Source of the DNA: a virus
Length of the DNA stretch: 30,630 nucleotides
Reading direction: 5' to 3' (one strand)
Virus record (IMG/VR): IMGVR_UViG_3300050014_000225
Location: 1 to 30,630 of that record
The translations under genes were made by a program, and so were the position numbers. Every line of letters starts with the position of its first letter. The stretch's first letter is position 1. The notes under the pieces are model-generated. The model saw nothing but the letters and a program-made list of their open reading frames with translations. It made no database searches and was not told the origin of the DNA. Positions 21,954-29,852 of the stretch are shown one piece after another.

Positions 21954-21979
21954 CTGTTTCTCCTTTTTAACATCTAGCG

Positions 21980-21999
21980 ATAACTCCCGAAGGAGTTAT
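21980..21999 (-). other. stable cUUCGg tetraloop hairpin before the glycan cassette
   Basis: On the minus strand ATAACTCC and GGAGTTAT form an 8-bp stem closed by a C(UUCG)G tetraloop, one of the most stable RNA loops known. It lies between the small virion gene and the ribosome site of the GT4 gene. No T run follows, so it is not a normal terminator. It could stop exonucleases and split the head mRNA from the cassette mRNA. Confidence 0.6.
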
Positions 22000-22009
22000 A
22001 CGTCAGTCG

Positions 22010-22480
22010 TTAAAGAGCTCGAATGAAAGCCGCAGTATTGCCAGTTGAACTTTTACCATCAGCTGAAGCAATTGTTTCCATTGCAACAACGAAGTTATCA
22101 AGAGAAGCAATCAATAGAGCTTCAGTAGTAATACCAGCTGAAAGCATTGATCCATAAGCCAAGTAAGCAGCACCAGCTGCGCCGACAAGACGAGTTCCAG
22201 GAGTGGCGGAGTAGGAAGAAACTACTGCAGAAGTTACAACAGAAGTTCTAGCTCCGTAAACTTGTACTAATCCGTAACCATCGTCTGCCAAAGTAGCGTT
22301 GTTGATACCAGCGAAAAGCAAGTTTCCACTAGTAATCATCTGAGAAACACAAAGACCATCTGATTGTTCGTCTGTCTCGAAATAGACAGGCAAGTTAGCA
22401 GCTAAAGAAGCACCAGAAGTGTTCTTAGCGATGATGAAGACTTTTTCAGCATCACTTTTGTTAATTCTTTGAAAGAGCAT
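22010..22480 (-). CDS. small virion protein downstream of the capsid gene, possible decoration protein
   Basis: A 156-residue Ala/Ser-rich beta protein without cysteine pairs. It has FIIAKNTSGASLAANLPVYF at about 15-34, a GNLLFAGINNATLADDGYGL segment, then GLVQVYGARTSVVTSA and an AAGAAYLAYG stretch. Short proteins of this kind following the major capsid gene often coat the head. AAAAAGGA precedes the ATG. The assignment is by order and composition. Confidence 0.5.
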   Translation of the reverse strand: MLFQRINKSDAEKVFIIAKNTSGASLAANLPVYFETDEQSDGLCVSQMITSGNLLFAGINNATLADDGYGLVQVYGARTSVVTSAVVSSYSATPGTRLVGAAGAAYLAYGSMLSAGITTEALLIASLDNFVVAMETIASADGKSSTGNTAAFIRAL

Positions 22481-22526
22481 TTTAATCCTTTTTACATAAC
22501 AACCGTAACAGAATGTTTTTTTACTG

Positions 22527-22556
22527 TCTGAGGAGAGGGTCGATTCTCTCCACAGA
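22527..22556 (-). other. RNA hairpin with AATCGACC loop, copy 2
   Basis: On the minus strand an outer 4-bp stem TCTG/CAGA, one A.A mismatch and an inner 6-bp stem GGAGAG/CTCTCC close an 8-base loop AATCGACC. The same loop on a different, fully paired stem is seen at 25028-25047. It lies in the leader of the small virion gene that ends at 22010. In plus orientation a T run follows, but no plus-strand gene would use it. Confidence 0.55.
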
Positions 22557-22568
22557 AGTTTTTTTAAA

Positions 22569-22832
22569 TTATTTTCCGAAAGCTATCCACGTTCCAGCTT
22601 TTCCAGATGTGAATATAATGGTTATTGCACTACCAGCTAGAGGAAAAGTTTCGTTTATTGTTACAGAGTCGGCAACAACCGAAGAACCTCCAGCATTAAC
22701 AGCCATTGTAAACACTGTTCCAAGACCAGTATCTATGTCTCCAGTAGTAACTCCAGAACCATCAAATGTTCCGTAAGTCACTCTCAAATTACCGAATACT
22801 GTTTGACCAGATACTACAGAAGTAAAAGCCAT
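22569..22832 (-). CDS. small structural beta protein, 87 residues
   Basis: A short, glycine- and threonine-rich protein with alternating strands (VFGNLRVTYGTFDGSG, IDTGLGTVFTMAVNAGGS, SAITIIFTSGKAGTWIAFGK). It directly follows the major capsid gene. This type is commonly seen near phage head genes, perhaps as a head fibre or decoration. No catalytic or metal motif. AGAAAGGA precedes the ATG. Confidence 0.5.
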   Translation of the reverse strand: MAFTSVVSGQTVFGNLRVTYGTFDGSGVTTGDIDTGLGTVFTMAVNAGGSSVVADSVTINETFPLAGSAITIIFTSGKAGTWIAFGK

Positions 22833-22862
22833 ATTAATCCTTTCTTTATATTAATTGATTAA

Positions 22863-24202
22863 TTAGGCTGCCGTGATGGTCATTACGCCCTGTTTCTGAC
22901 AGTTGGAAGCTGTAAGCTCACCCATCCAGATACATTTGGCGACCTTAGCATCTTGATTCTCTGGTTCTTGGAATTCACCAAACTTCATATCAGCCTGAGT
23001 GTGAACATTCAAGTCAATATAATTTGTGTTCAAGAAGTACATTCTAAGAGCAGTACAGTAGTAATCCCAAGTGATTGGAACACCCTTGAACAAAAGATTC
23101 TGGAAACCAGCATCAGCGGTCTTTGAGTCTTGGAATCTCTCTTGAGGAAGAAGAACTTTCTCATAGTATTCAAAAACTGTCTGAGTCGTGACGATAAGGT
23201 TTGGCTTGTCAGCCTGATCTTGCAAGGTACAAGAGTTGAAGATGGTTCTCATCGTATCAACACCATTAGCCGCAAAGGATGCAGCCGTACCTGTTTGTGG
23301 CTGCCACCAAGAATAAGTTGTCTTTGAAAGACCACCGAAAGTAGCAGTTGTTGACATTATATCAGTGATGGAGTGAATCTGAGAACCTGAGTCTGAAGAT
23401 GCTGTAAACAGAGCCTGACCAAGAGTCTGAGTAAGAGTTTTCTGAAGTTGGTCAGTTTTAGCTTTCAAAAGATCTACAATCTTTGAAGCGCCGTTGTTTT
23501 GTCGAGCCTCTTTACCAGAGATTGTGACAGTTCCGCCCAATTGTTTCCCAATTTTGTTATCGTAGGCTTTCTATTTCCTACCTCACTCTGTTCCCAGAGT
23601 GTTCAGATCATATCTTCCCTTTCGGGTTCCGCGCTTGTTGAGGATTATATTTATTCACCTCTGATCGTTACGGTGTCTAAGAGCCTTGCGTAATCTCTTA
23701 GCTAACCTCGGTATTGCCCACTATCTGGCGAAGATGTTGGGGTGTTCACCGATTCCACGGAATATTTTTTACCTAGTCGGAGTGCCTTACTTCCATAGTT
23801 ATCAGTTTTACGATGACATTGGACACATAAGGTCTGGCCGTTGTTGAGTTCAAATCGCATTTTTTCGTTTATAGTCCCTGCGAGTTGAATTGTCAATGTA
23901 CTAGGCTAACCAGACTTTTGACGCTATAAAGCGAAAGCGTAGTTATAAGAAGCCGCAGTGATACCATCTTGAGGAGTAGTATCAATTATACCGTAACCTG
24001 AGTACCAACCCACTGTGGAGTTTGTACCGTACATCAATGGTTTAACAATTTGAGTTCCACCATCAATCATTTTTTTGTTACCAGTAGAAAGTAACTTAGA
24101 CAAAAGCGGAGTTGATTTGAAAATGTTGTCAGACAACTTTTTCTCATAATTCGCTAAGGTTGTGCTAAGAACTGAATCTGGTACTGCAAATGTAAGTGCC
24201 AT
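22863..24202 (-). CDS. major capsid protein, gene split by a group I intron
   Basis: Exon 1 (24202 down to 23935 or 23929) encodes the N-arm and first part: MALTFAVPDSVLSTTLANYE, then KKMIDGGTQIVKPLMYG. Exon 2 (23548 down to 22863) encodes KQLGGTVTISGKEARQNNGA, AKTDQLQKTL and the rest. Joining YNYA or YNYAFA to WKQLGGTVTISG across the gap restores a continuous HK97-fold-like capsid protein of 317 or 319 residues. The x-W-K-Q...VxISG...N.G segment is common in such proteins. Without splicing the product stops after 92 residues. AAGGAT precedes the start. Gene order (scaffold before, small head proteins after) supports the call. The exact 5' splice base is one of two positions six bases apart. 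Confidence 0.85.
23549..23934 (-). other. group I intron inside the major capsid gene
   Basis: An insertion of 380 or 386 bases. The exon before ends in T and the intron ends in G, as group I introns require, and removal restores the reading frame with a tryptophan codon across the joint. Core elements on the minus strand: GATCA at 23666-23662 pairs with TGATC at 23610-23606 (P7). Between them a CCC-GAAA-GGG hairpin at 23626-23617 fits P8, and GAAGATATGATC resembles the conserved S element. After P7 come CACTCTG/CAGAGTG at 23601-23584 (P9) and GTAGG/CCTAC at 23581-23562 (P9.1). A CTAAGAG/CTCTTAG stem lies at 23701-23677 before P7. P1 and P3 were not settled by eye. Confidence 0.8.
23702..23896 (-). 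pseudogene. remnant of an HNH homing endonuclease inside the intron
   Basis: An open frame of 64 residues from a TTG carries only the second half of an HNH domain: NNGQTLCVQCHRKTDNYGS, with the CxxCH zinc and histidine unit, followed by an unrelated end overlapping the intron core. The first zinc pair and the catalytic histidine that precede this in intact enzymes are absent. No good ribosome site is seen. It is best read as the decayed nuclease that once carried the intron into the capsid gene. Confidence 0.6.
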
Positions 24203-24237
24203 TTTAATCCTTGAAATTTACATCTGTATCAGTGTTA

Positions 24238-24975
24238 TTAAAAACCTAATGTTGTTTTAGCCGCCTCAAATGCTTCCTCAAACGAACCAGCATCTTTTTT
24301 GGTGACTACATTAGAACTTGACGATGAAGCAGGATCTGAAAACTGACTTTTGCGAGCTATTTTAGCTTTAAATTCATCAGCACCAATTTGTTTAGCTTTC
24401 TGGAAAAGGATGTTTGATACAACATAGTCAAGAGGAATGTTCGGATTTTGTTTAGCCGATTCTTCAATCTCGTCATAGTTCTGTTGAATCAATTCTTCTC
24501 CGTACTTCGCAACAACCTGAGAAACTTCTTTTTCAATTGTCTGAGCTTGTACCTGTTGAGGTAAAGTTCCAAGTTTCTCGGTCACGATACTATCGAATAC
24601 TTCTTTTAAAGCCGCTCCCTCTGGCGAGTTCATATACTGCTGAACTTTAGATTTTGAGTCTTCAAGTTGTGGATCAGTCTGAACTGGAGGAATTGGTTTA
24701 TTAGCATCTAGCTGGTCTCCGACTTTAGTAATCGCTTGCATCTTTTTTGTGAAAGAAGATTGCATTTTCTTAGCTACTTTTTCAGCAGCTGCACGATACT
24801 TTTCGGGGACACTGTCTAAATTCTCGAAGTCGATAGCATCAAAATCGTAATCATCATCACCTGTTGATGCAGGTTCATTGTTTGGTTTTGCAGGTTCTGA
24901 ACCGACTGGCATCCCCGAAGCACCAATGGGGCTACCGCCGACAGGTTCTGTTCCACCTTCAAATGGTTCTGGCAT
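24238..24975 (-). CDS. capsid scaffolding protein
   Basis: A 245-residue acidic and helical protein. The N-terminus is proline- and glycine-rich with FEGGTEPVGGSPIG. Next comes an acidic patch (DDDYDFDAIDFENLD), then helices (PEKYRAAAEKVAKKMQSSFT) and a long coiled region. It ends in a short positively charged helix after SSSSNVVTKKD, as scaffolds do for binding the capsid protein. It sits between portal and capsid genes, the usual place. The ATG at 24975 is chosen over a TTG two codons earlier. The leader holds the three-way-junction RNA element. Confidence 0.78.
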   Translation of the reverse strand: MPEPFEGGTEPVGGSPIGASGMPVGSEPAKPNNEPASTGDDDYDFDAIDFENLDSVPEKYRAAAEKVAKKMQSSFTKKMQAITKVGDQLDANKPIPPVQTDPQLEDSKSKVQQYMNSPEGAALKEVFDSIVTEKLGTLPQQVQAQTIEKEVSQVVAKYGEELIQQNYDEIEESAKQNPNIPLDYVVSNILFQKAKQIGADEFKAKIARKSQFSDPASSSSSNVVTKKDAGSFEEAFEAAKTTLGF

Positions 24976-24997
24976 TTTCAACTCACTTTCTAATTGT

Positions 24998-25015
24998 GAC
25001 TGCTAAATTGCAGTC
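24998..25015 (-). other. short hairpin in the scaffold gene leader
   Basis: GACTGC and GCAGTC form a 6-bp perfect stem with an AATTTA loop on the minus strand. It lies between the three-way-junction element and the scaffold ribosome site, so it would stand just upstream of where ribosomes load. Confidence 0.45.
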
Positions 25016-25019
25016 TTGT

Positions 25020-25082
25020 ATCTGGAGGGATTGGGTCGATTCAATCCTATTGTGTTTCTTACTCGAAGAAACGACTCCAGAT
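25020..25082 (-). other. three-way-junction RNA element with AATCGACC loop, copy 1
   Basis: An outer 8-bp stem ATCTGGAG/CTCCAGAT (25020-25027 with 25075-25082) encloses two hairpins. One is 25028-25047, GGATTG/CAATCC around loop AATCGACC. The other is 25054-25072, GTTTCTT/AAGAAAC around a 5-base loop. All three stems pair perfectly. The first hairpin shares its loop with the hairpin at 22532-22551 while its stem differs. It lies between the small gene ending at 25095 and the scaffold start. It is likely a leader or processing structure of the head mRNA; no known riboswitch class was recognised. Confidence 0.6.
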
Positions 25083-25094
25083 AAAAGACAAAAA

Positions 25095-27200: not shown

Positions 27201-27440
27201 TTATTTAGGATTTATTTTAATACAAACATTTTTATTAATCTTATACCCGAATGTGTGCATAATATTTCTTAAGGAATTGGCCGTTGTACCTTTTTTACCA
27301 ATTATCTGTGAAATATCTTCTTTTCCAGCATAGACATTGATTAAAACACCTCGATCGTCGATGGTTCTAATGAATGATAATTCTTTGGGATTACTAATAA
27401 GTGGTTCGATAATCATTTTCAAGTATGTTACTTCATCCAT
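27201..27440 (-). CDS. KH-domain RNA-binding protein, KhpA-like
   Basis: A 79-residue protein with a KhpA/YlqC-type KH fold: an N-terminal helix (YLKMIIEPLISNPKEL), two strands (LSFIRTIDD, VLINVYAG) and the RNA-contact helix-turn-helix IIGKKGTTANSLRNI at 46-60, with the G-x-x-G signature at Gly48-Lys-Lys-Gly51. KhpA is a bacterial RNA chaperone that works with KhpB. Its place between terminase and portal in a phage operon is unusual. AAGGAT precedes the ATG, with a terminator hairpin directly before that. Confidence 0.8.
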   Translation of the reverse strand: MDEVTYLKMIIEPLISNPKELSFIRTIDDRGVLINVYAGKEDISQIIGKKGTTANSLRNIMHTFGYKINKNVCIKINPK

Positions 27441-27454
27441 AATATCCTTAGATT

Positions 27455-27485
27455 AAAAAAAGAACCCAAAACAACGTGGGTTCTT
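27455..27485 (-). terminator. intrinsic terminator or attenuator before the KhpA-like gene
   Basis: On the minus strand AAGAACCC (27485-27478) pairs with GGGTTCTT (27467-27460) around a 10-base loop, followed by a run of T. This is a textbook intrinsic terminator. It lies between the DUF2292-like gene and the KhpA-like gene in the middle of the morphogenesis block, so genes further on need read-through, antitermination or another promoter. Confidence 0.75.
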
Positions 27486-27499
27486 CCCTTATTAGTTAT

Positions 27500-27528
27500 A
27501 TTAAACTCCGACTAAAAGGAGTTGTCAA
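27500..27528 (-). promoter_or_regulatory. candidate sigma-70 promoter overlapping inverted repeats
   Basis: Minus strand TTGACA at 27528-27523, 17 bases, then TTTAAT at 27505-27500. The spacer holds an inverted repeat AACTCC/GGAGTT (27504-27509 with 27518-27523), which could be an operator. Predicted initiation falls a few bases before the terminator hairpin, so the first product would be a short RNA of about 40 bases unless the hairpin is bypassed. Confidence 0.4.
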
Positions 27529-27531
27529 TAC

Positions 27532-27693
27532 CTACAACTGGATACTTTTAATAATCTCTTTTGCAATCACTGGAACACCATTTTTAACTACAATTTCAAC
27601 AGATCCATATCCGACTTGGCGGATAAGATTAATCAAGGCAATTTCTTCTCGTTGAAGAGAAACTATCTCAATTTTACTGTTGAATGTGACCAT
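27532..27693 (-). CDS. DUF2292/YezD-like small protein
   Basis: A 53-residue protein matching the DUF2292 pattern: a helix EEIALINLIRQVGYGSVEIV, then VKNGVPVIAKEIIKSIQL. The LI..I.YG.V...V.NG.PV pattern is characteristic. The family is widespread in bacteria and its role is unknown; it has been thought to bind nucleic acid. The ATG overlaps the stop of the C2H2 protein (TAATG). It ends right before the promoter and terminator elements. Confidence 0.7.
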   Translation of the reverse strand: MVTFNSKIEIVSLQREEIALINLIRQVGYGSVEIVVKNGVPVIAKEIIKSIQL

Positions 27694-28001: not shown

Positions 28002-29852
28002 TTATTTACTAATATATTTACTTCTTCTACTTTGAATCTCTGCTAAAGTTCCTGGAACTGAGTTTCTCGGAATATAACTTGGATCGACCGACACAGTATA
28101 TTCTCCCTTAAGTCCCCAATAAGCTAAAGCTGTAGCCATTATTAAGTCATCGTGGTAACCAGTCACCGCCCCGAAACCATTCTTAGAAGCGTCTTCAGTG
28201 TAAACGAATGTTCTAAGTTCTGAAATTATTCTTTCATCGTTCAGTTTGGCTTTGTTCTCACGCATCTTTTGAAGAAACGAATCTAATAATGTTTGTTTGT
28301 TGGCGTGGGTTGTTTTCCAGCCGTACTTCTCAATCTTTTTTCTGGAAACTGAATCAAACACTTCCCGCTTATAAATATTGGAATAACCAGCATCTCTTAA
28401 TTTTGTGAGTGTTGCCATTCCAGCGGCGTTGACTTCAATATTGGCTTTGGCGTTTCGGTACATTCTGCCAATTTGAGTAATCTTACTCGCTAGTTTATCG
28501 GCTGGTAATCTGTCTGTCCAAACCGCTACAACTTCTCCAGTTGCTTTTGAAACAACTACAATTCCTGATGGATCAACTACTCCCTCTGACGGATCAATTC
28601 CCATTTGGTATTCATCCTGAGTGTCCATTTCTTTAAAGATTGTAATTCCCTCAGTTACTCGAATCGGTTTGTTCTTAAGAAGATTCTGTTCTTGAATGTA
28701 CTCAACAGGAAAGTATGCTCCCTGAGCTGTGAATGTAGTTTCATCCCATATCCCGTAAACATATTGACGTTTCCAGGTTTCTGTTGAACCTTTTAAAAGA
28801 TTGTCGATGTACTCTTGACCCAAGTGTTTGGCGTTGTCCAAAGTGGAAGATTCGAAAACGTGATAGTCTGGATCAGATTCTTGTTTGTAAACTCTATATC
28901 CCCAAAACAAAGCTGGATTACAGGTCATCATAATCTGATGGACATACTTCGGTTCTCCTGGAGCTGTTTCGACTTTTCTTCTAAGACGACCACGAAGTCC
29001 GTGGAATACTGCCTCAGGAATTTCTTCAACCTGATCGATGGCGGCGAAACCCAAGTTAAGTGATTTAATTTCATTCTCTGAAACAGTGTCAAGGTGACGG
29101 AAAATTAACTGAGAGCCATTCTTTAAGTAAAGTCTCTGTTCTGAACGTGAATAGCTCTGAATCATATTCGGTGGACAGACTTCAAAAAAAGTTTGTTGGG
29201 TTGAGTCCTGAAGTTCCTGATAAGTTAAACGACCAAGTAATCCATAATTTCCAGGATAAGAAAGGTGCTGCATTATTTTGTGGCAAAGAATTAAAGTTTT
29301 ACCACTGTTACTGACAATGAAATCATTAGCATAAAACATATGGCTAATACAGTTTACTGTAATATCATAAACATTCTCTATTCCAAGTTTTTCATACTTT
29401 GTTATTGGGTGATAAGAATCAAATTTAATAAGTCTAATATTTTTTCCACCACCATCTAAATAATCAATTATTTTTCTTACAGACCAGAGTTCGTTTCTAT
29501 CAGGGTCGCCACTATCAACTAAATACTCGTGCTCTTCGCTGCCGTCTATATAAAAACCAAGTTCAGTTATTATACGATAAACTTGTTTTTTGCCACTATC
29601 TATTTTTCGTATAACGGTTGTCGGAATTGATCTACCACCATAATATACTCCCCAAATCACATCCCCAACTTTTACTTTTCCCATAGTTGTAGTTCCGCTG
29701 GGTGTTGCAATAATTGTTCTAGCTGGCAAACAACCAAAACCTCCTGAAAGTAATGGAAAACGAACATTTGTTTTATAAAAGTCCTCCTGCATCTTGGAGA
29801 GTTCCCATTCTTTTTCAACTGTGCCATCTTTTGCTTCGTAACTAATTTTCAA
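28002..29852 (-). CDS. terL: terminase large subunit carrying an in-frame intein
   Basis: 616 residues as encoded, 474 after removal of residues 41-182. It is the ATPase and nuclease motor that packages DNA through the portal. The joined Walker A is GGFG+SGKT. The Walker B equivalent is AAIDQVEEIP with Asp273 and a catalytic glutamate. The C-terminal RNase-H-like nuclease has an acidic GIDPSEGVVDPSG strand (about residue 435) and the DD pair in GYHDDLIMATALA near 580. Order (small subunit before, portal after) agrees. Without protein splicing the P-loop is broken, so the enzyme should be inactive until the intein leaves. The start ATG lies two bases after the stop of the small subunit. Confidence 0.95.
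   Translation of the reverse strand: MKISYEAKDGTVEKEWELSKMQEDFYKTNVRFPLLSGGFGCLPARTIIATPSGTTTMGKVKVGDVIWGVYYGGRSIPTTVIRKIDSGKKQVYRIITELGFYIDGSEEHEYLVDSGDPDRNELWSVRKIIDYLDGGGKNIRLIKFDSYHPITKYEKLGIENVYDITVNCISHMFYANDFIVSNSGKTLILCHKIMQHLSYPGNYGLLGRLTYQELQDSTQQTFFEVCPPNMIQSYSRSEQRLYLKNGSQLIFRHLDTVSENEIKSLNLGFAAIDQVEEIPEAVFHGLRGRLRRKVETAPGEPKYVHQIMMTCNPALFWGYRVYKQESDPDYHVFESSTLDNAKHLGQEYIDNLLKGSTETWKRQYVYGIWDETTFTAQGAYFPVEYIQEQNLLKNKPIRVTEGITIFKEMDTQDEYQMGIDPSEGVVDPSGIVVVSKATGEVVAVWTDRLPADKLASKITQIGRMYRNAKANIEVNAAGMATLTKLRDAGYSNIYKREVFDSVSRKKIEKYGWKTTHANKQTLLDSFLQKMRENKAKLNDERIISELRTFVYTEDASKNGFGAVTGYHDDLIMATALAYWGLKGEYTVSVDPSYIPRNSVPGTLAEIQSRRSKYISK
29307..29732 (-). mobile_element. mini-intein in the P-loop of the large terminase
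   Basis: 142 residues (41-182 of the precursor) with no endonuclease domain. Block A: Cys41 first, CLPARTIIATPSG, then GKVKVGD. Block B: IDGSEEHEYLV, where the histidine of the usual TxxH is kept and the threonine is Ser. Block F: ENVYDITVNCISHMFYAND. It ends FIVSN, so the last residue is Asn182 and the next, first of the C-extein, is Ser183. The residue before the Asn is Ser instead of the usual His, a variant known in some active inteins. Removal restores GGFGSGKT exactly. Confidence 0.93.

Follow-up and report, generated by a model that had tools for sequence, protein, structure and literature searches.

To our knowledge, operators that act at the level of translation have been little described for the capsid genes of double-stranded DNA phages. 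The MS2-type coat-protein operator belongs to an RNA phage, and its contacts lie in the loop and at a bulged A. By analogy, the closest well-studied systems for the locus described here are the autogenous leaders of T4 gene 43 and T4 gene 32. In the gene 43 (DNA polymerase) operators of T4 and RB69, a hairpin lies about 40 bases upstream of the start codon, and its protein ligand blocks the ribosome-binding site; the top 10 bases, loop included, are identical in the two phages (PMC3014915). The leader of T4 gene 32 diverges among related phages and has been lost in RB49 (PMC3014915).

The locus was studied in the window, that is, the whole stretch of DNA that was analysed (a 30.6-kb virus record), and in its relatives, all of which are uncultivated. 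In these relatives, an undescribed covarying RNA precedes a predicted capsid-cementing gene. The existence of this RNA, its covariation, its link to a single gene family and its pairing with the Shine-Dalgarno (SD) sequence were all computed here. Like the gene 43 operators, the cement leader is a hairpin in phage mRNA upstream of a start codon, but its fixed sequence forms an internal and not an apical loop, the SD itself is paired, and the gene behind it encodes a predicted capsid cement protein instead of a DNA polymerase. With the gene 32 leader it shares a folded structure upstream of the ribosome-binding site and apparently also divergence among relatives, as it seems worn in the window and in the related locus L003. 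The gene 32 leader consists of a pseudoknot and unstructured A+U-rich sequence, neither of which is evident in the cement leader. The MS2-type operator likewise joins a capsid gene product with a hairpin at a ribosome-binding site, but it differs in phage type, position and gene.

The Window and Its Head-Gene Operon

The head genes of the window are encoded on the minus strand. They begin with the terminase, a zinc-finger protein, a KH protein, the portal and a 61-aa protein, and continue with the presumed scaffold, the capsid (interrupted by an insert), an 87-aa gene and a 156-aa gene, followed by glycosyltransferase-like genes. The features needed for the argument are as follows.

27201..27440, minus strand: KhpA/KhpB-type KH-domain protein (PF13083, E 8.8e-13)
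25028..25047, minus strand: site B hairpin, GGATTG-AATCGACC-CAATCC, 6 perfect pairs, an arm of a three-way junction
24238..24975, minus strand: presumed scaffold gene (from ATG), behind site B
22569..22832, minus strand: 87-aa gene, flanked by the capsid and cement genes and lying upstream of site A
22532..22551, minus strand: site A hairpin, GGAGAG-AATCGACC-CTCTCC, 6 perfect pairs
22010..22480, minus strand: 156-aa gene ('MLFQRIN...'), behind site A; relatives match Pfam Phage_cement_2

Two related loci, L003 and L097, are syntenic with the window across the whole region. Their 156-aa proteins are 85% identical to that of the window, the 87-aa gene is kept in both (62-64% identity), and the presumed scaffold is 32-36% identical to its counterparts there. 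No family match was obtained for the presumed scaffold protein, and its name is positional, given for its place between the portal and capsid genes. One relative is contained in a Candidatus Gottesmanbacteria MAG contig, which as to the host is a hint and not evidence.

Two members of the protein alignment of the 156-aa family matched Pfam Phage_cement_2 (best E 1.3e-6), and two weakly matched a PHROG of head decoration. The window's own protein had no direct family match, so the term "cement" is assigned by family, and the product is a predicted capsid cement or decoration protein. The cement proteins of L097, L110 and L111 are 68-85% identical to it. A predicted structure of the cement protein had a mean pLDDT of 39.5 and was set aside.

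The capsid gene is in two exons (23924-24202 and 22863-23540). The insert between them (23541-23923, about 380 bases) contains a short HNH-like reading frame and is probably a mobile intron; a search of Rfam gave no match for it. In L097, an HNH endonuclease-like frame separates the 87-aa gene from the hairpin of site A (L097:5525-5929). The large terminase frame of the window (28002-29852) has an extra, intein-like block after GGFG (CLPARTIIATPSG...VSNSGK), and a long terminator-like hairpin, TAAGGGAAGAACCCA/TGGGTTCTTTTTTTA, stands between the zinc-finger gene and the KH gene at 27441-27692.

Two Hairpins with the Same Loop

The preliminary description had pointed to two perfectly paired hairpins that carry the same 8-base loop, AATCGACC, on the transcribed (minus) strand. 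Both are real and exactly as reported. Site A is located in the 88-base gap preceding the 156-aa gene, and its stem is extended by an outer TCTG/CAGA pairing that had been overlooked; site B is located in the gap of roughly 113 bases preceding the scaffold gene. Both leaders fold better than their shuffles (z -3.0 at site A; -4.6 to -6.2 at site B).

How unusual the shared loop appears depends on what is counted. The window contains two copies of AATCGACC, each in one of these hairpins and on the transcribed strand. Shuffling gave at least two copies in 15 of 100 cases, so the 8-mer taken by itself is nothing unusual. Hairpin pairs with a common 8-base loop and stems of at least 6 pairs were found once in the window and in none of 300 dinucleotide shuffles, which makes the coincidence notable but based on a single pair. 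When the loop length was relaxed to 6-12 bases, a loop-sharing pair appeared in 4/100 shuffles. The shared loop is thus above chance within one window, although not extreme given the many features that a reader could choose. When 39 related genomes were tested by permutation, loop 8-mers shared within a genome were not enriched (1 observed, 0.4 expected).

Pairing of the loop in trans was also considered, and the window has no complement, GGTCGATT, on its transcribed strand. On the minus strand, neither hairpin is followed by the U run of an intrinsic terminator. Site A could in principle serve the opposite strand, as a terminator against antisense transcription. Read on the plus strand it is CTCTCCaCAGAaGTTTTTTT, a stem followed by TTTTTTT. 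This role is very improbable: there is no annotated-looking plus-strand gene nearby, a terminator scan of the window did not return site A and showed no excess of terminators (7 vs 9.6 expected), and the T run is the complement of an A-rich 5' flank that is common in the cement-leader family.

Conservation of the Loop and of the KH Protein

Hairpins are present at both homologous sites in L003 and L097, and their stems and loops are unrelated to those of the window. The site A homologue is CCCC-UUCG-GGGG in L003 and has a GGCGGG..CCCGCC stem in L097; the site B homologue is a long GACCAC/GUGGUC hairpin in L003 and a CUCUCAUGAGGGC/GCCCUCAUGAGAG hairpin in L097. Elsewhere in these two virus records AATCGACC occurs, with two copies per whole record, not far from chance level, and none of them is at either leader site. 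A search of 84 contigs that share the capsid protein turned up no hairpin with a AATCGACC loop. The loop was therefore rejected as the conserved unit, as no relative examined retains it. The 20-base pattern GGANNGAATCGACCCNNTCC had 10 matches across viral contigs; the inspected matches that had a paired stem fall inside long reading frames belonging to unrelated genes and were set aside as chance.

The KH-domain protein had been put forward as a binder of the hairpins. Its gene is present in 3 of 17 virus records tested, namely the window and its two closest relatives, L003 and L097. Several of the 14 records that lack it carry the cement leader element, and on this distribution the KH protein was rejected as a general partner.

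A loop-specific operator would require one phage protein to bind AATCGACC in both leaders and so coordinate scaffold and decoration, with loop and binder co-evolving fast enough for each phage to have its own loop. An identical loop on compensated stems within one genome is what such an operator would leave, and the T4 and RB69 gene 43 operators do share their top 10 bases, loop included (PMC3014915). A parallel is provided by L121 and L124, in which three tandem cement paralogues each have their own leader copy: the stems of these leaders differ yet remain paired, while the flanks and the loop core GGAA-TGGAACC are kept across all three. Here, however, the same signature of an unchanged loop on changed stems is reproduced through tandem gene duplication. 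Against such an operator, L003 and L097 conserve the KH and head genes but show unrelated loops in their orthologous leaders, loop sharing is not enriched over the 39 genomes, and site B lacks the cement leader element. We consider a loop-specific operator rather doubtful. The preliminary description had itself proposed searching relatives for further copies and aligning the leaders for loop conservation. By that check the loop operator fails, since the relatives do not conserve the loop; the leader at site A is not refuted by it. The shared AATCGACC is best seen as a genome-specific resemblance, acquired by copying or coincidence, and not as the conserved recognition element.

Recurrent loops were seen in other phages as well. 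Loops of GATAGGG or GTAGGG recur on different stems within the same phage in L146, L131, L134 and L152; they resemble an SD and may be a ribosome standby feature. In L024, the loop TTGTCC is common to two hairpins of one capsid leader, again on different stems (L024:5627-5736).

A Leader RNA of Predicted Cement Genes

Inspection of the region upstream of the 156-aa gene in related viral loci and in one Gottesmanbacteria MAG contig revealed a common pattern, (pyrimidines)-AACAAARCG-(variable hairpin)-GWCAGYSACAAA-(Shine-Dalgarno). The flanks AA(C/A)AAARC and AGYSA surround the variable hairpin, and in most relatives carrying the element the upstream pyrimidine tract pairs with the SD. The fixed internal loop sequence is AACAAAACG/GUCAGUSA. 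In the columns of alignment A6, it comprises the pairs R14-Y52, C15-G51 and N16-N49, together with a bulged A50 and GW.

In alignment A6 (11 leaders), 93.7% of cells are paired, both sides have changed in 10 of 13 pairs, and the covariation is 0.706 (0.261 when shuffled and at most 0.18 when slid). Alignment A7, of the inner part of 13 leaders, is 99.0% paired, with a covariation of 0.902 against 0.167 when shuffled. The leaders of both alignments were picked by their motif flanks, so three tests that involve less choice carry more weight. The first is a pattern scan with only the flanks specified, set out in the next paragraph, in which every element stood before a gene of the cement family. 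In the second, the inner stem could be formed in each of 21 distinct leaders, though it was no part of the regular expression; most of these leaders have an upstream tract that pairs with the SD, and the pairing of each pyrimidine tract with its own SD beats pairing with swapped SDs, only 1 in 2000 permutations being as good. Thirdly, model R1 matched leaders outside its build, in L146, L147, L148, L149, L151 and L152, with E values from 4e-7 to 3e-14. The L125 element was also found by a model not built from it. Model R2 found site A of L097, which had not been used in its building, at 30.2 bits (E 3e-5; 2.5e-6 for that record), as well as L110 and L111, both partly used in its building. When virus records were searched whole, R2 matched each at a single site or at two units side by side.

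The element is tied to one gene family. A DNA-only pattern scan of 2.9 million viral contigs, with the flanks fixed and the stem left free, gave 13 elements spread over 12 contigs, 6 of which were new. A gene of the cement family lies after every one of the 13 elements (11 by profile; L147 and L148 by reading frame). A looser pattern for a second subclass matched 7 contigs. Two of these have a real stem, L160 (the contig of L114) and the new L162, and in both the element stands before a cement gene; the other matches do not precede a cement gene and were taken as chance. The single R1 match in 286 genomes from the phylum to which the host genome of L144 belongs had no cement gene nearby and was likewise discarded as chance. 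In L147, the cement frame behind the leader ends after about 37 codons and appears to be broken by an insertion (L147:6842 onward).

The Rfam 15 covariance models gave no match in the window and, in six relatives, matched only a group I intron. Among cultured phages, no relative of the cement protein of L121 was found, and no earlier description of the cement leader RNA was found in the open-access literature. The earlier expectation of a selected RNA element, with changed stems and kept pairing, holds before the decoration gene in this phage group, whereas the expected conserved loop does not.

A Probable Worn Copy at Site A

The window contains a homologue of this element by position.

22516..22563, minus strand: position-homologue of the cement leader, AAAAAC-(hairpin)-AGUAAAAAAA, weak R2 match

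As with the element in the relatives, site A falls in the gap that separates the cement start codon from the head gene ahead of it (the gap before 22480). Model R2, in whose building the window, L003 and L097 had no part, scored it at 10.3 bits, rank 2 in the window, with an E value of 1.5 window-wide and 0.0059 for this leader alone, and most of this score comes from the A-rich flanks. Taken by itself, the match is not significant, and in the whole-record search it was below the threshold. Where the family has the flanks AA(C/A)AAARC and AGYSA, the window reads AAAAAC...ACAGTAA. The fixed internal loop is absent, being replaced by a near-continuous helix with one bulged C. There is no pyrimidine tract upstream of site A to enclose the element, such a tract being absent in L097 too, and the SD of the window stands some 25 bases downstream of the element. 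At site A of L003, which is as close a relative as L097, R2 gave no score; neither L003 nor L109 has a recognisable copy. In contrast, L097, L110 and L111 fit the internal-loop model, and their copies place the element in the ancestry of the window. With moderate confidence, site A can be regarded as a decayed copy of the ancestral cement leader, of which only the flanks AAAAAC...AGUAAAAAA remain. As the fixed internal loop has decayed, regulation in the window may be altered or lost.

The Presumed Scaffold Leader at Site B

The predicted structure at site B is larger than the single hairpin that had been described.

25013..25089, minus strand: predicted three-way junction of the scaffold leader (-30.1 kcal/mol, z -6.15, 0/200 shuffles)
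25054-25072, minus strand: second junction arm in the predicted fold, GTTTCTT-CGAGT-AAGAAAC
24998..25015, minus strand: small hairpin GACTGC-AATTTA-GCAGTC, separating the junction from the ribosome-binding site of the scaffold gene

This predicted junction had been missed in the preliminary description. Model R2 does not match site B, which also stands before a different gene, the scaffold. That the two hairpins are copies of one element, as had been supposed, is thus not supported, and site B is a separate scaffold leader outside the cement-leader family. In L097, a hairpin of the scaffold leader (L097:3441-3455) contains GGATCACCTCCTTTC, which could pair with the leader's own AAAGGAG. This sequence is the same as the 3' terminus typical of bacterial 16S rRNA, and hence an anti-Shine-Dalgarno sequence; among the loci compared, it is confined to L097.

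Stable hairpins of unrelated sequence are present at both sites in the relatives, with scaffold leaders reaching z values of -5.3 in L097, -4.8 in L109 and -4.1 in L003, and further hairpins occur in the window, e.g., at 21954-22009 and 27441-27692. Both sites might therefore be generic intercistronic hairpins that protect or process the mRNA and adjust expression ratios, needing neither a specific ligand nor a constrained sequence. The scaffold leaders of L110 and L111, however, are not unusually stable, and generic hairpins would leave unexplained the fixed internal loop, the SD pairing and the association of the cement leader with a single gene. We regard this account as possible but unlikely. 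On balance, we lean towards a different reading, in which site A is a worn member of a new family of translation-control leaders, site B is separate, and the shared loop is a genome-specific resemblance.

Proposed Mechanism and Significance

In the mechanism that we propose, the operon runs leftward, and each hairpin belongs to a folded leader that precedes the ribosome-binding site of one of its head genes. In most relatives with the element, the stem between the pyrimidine tract and the SD encloses the fixed-sequence internal loop and the variable hairpin. With the SD paired in this outer stem, the expected default is low translation, which would be relieved or enforced by something reading the fixed internal loop. 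Translation would be held down until the internal loop was bound or the stem opened, and cement output would thereby be matched to capsid assembly. We infer repression and a protein ligand, perhaps the cement protein itself, which suggests itself since every paralogue has retained a leader copy. The earlier idea of an operator that controls decoration levels is supported insofar as the cement leader is placed to control translation; its specific form, with the AATCGACC loop as the conserved part and the KH protein as the binder, is not supported.

A more speculative extension, to which we give little credence, is that this RNA family senses the state of capsid assembly by its fixed internal loop beside the occluded ribosome-binding site, with the cement or another head protein as the ligand, and that the apical loop of the window was reused in the scaffold leader for joint regulation of scaffold and decoration.

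A correct local observation, such as the same loop on changed stems, can point beside the conserved element and not at it. Double-stranded DNA phages need head proteins in fixed ratios, and a covarying leader that is tied to one cement family and has an SD-occluding stem is a directly testable candidate for their control.
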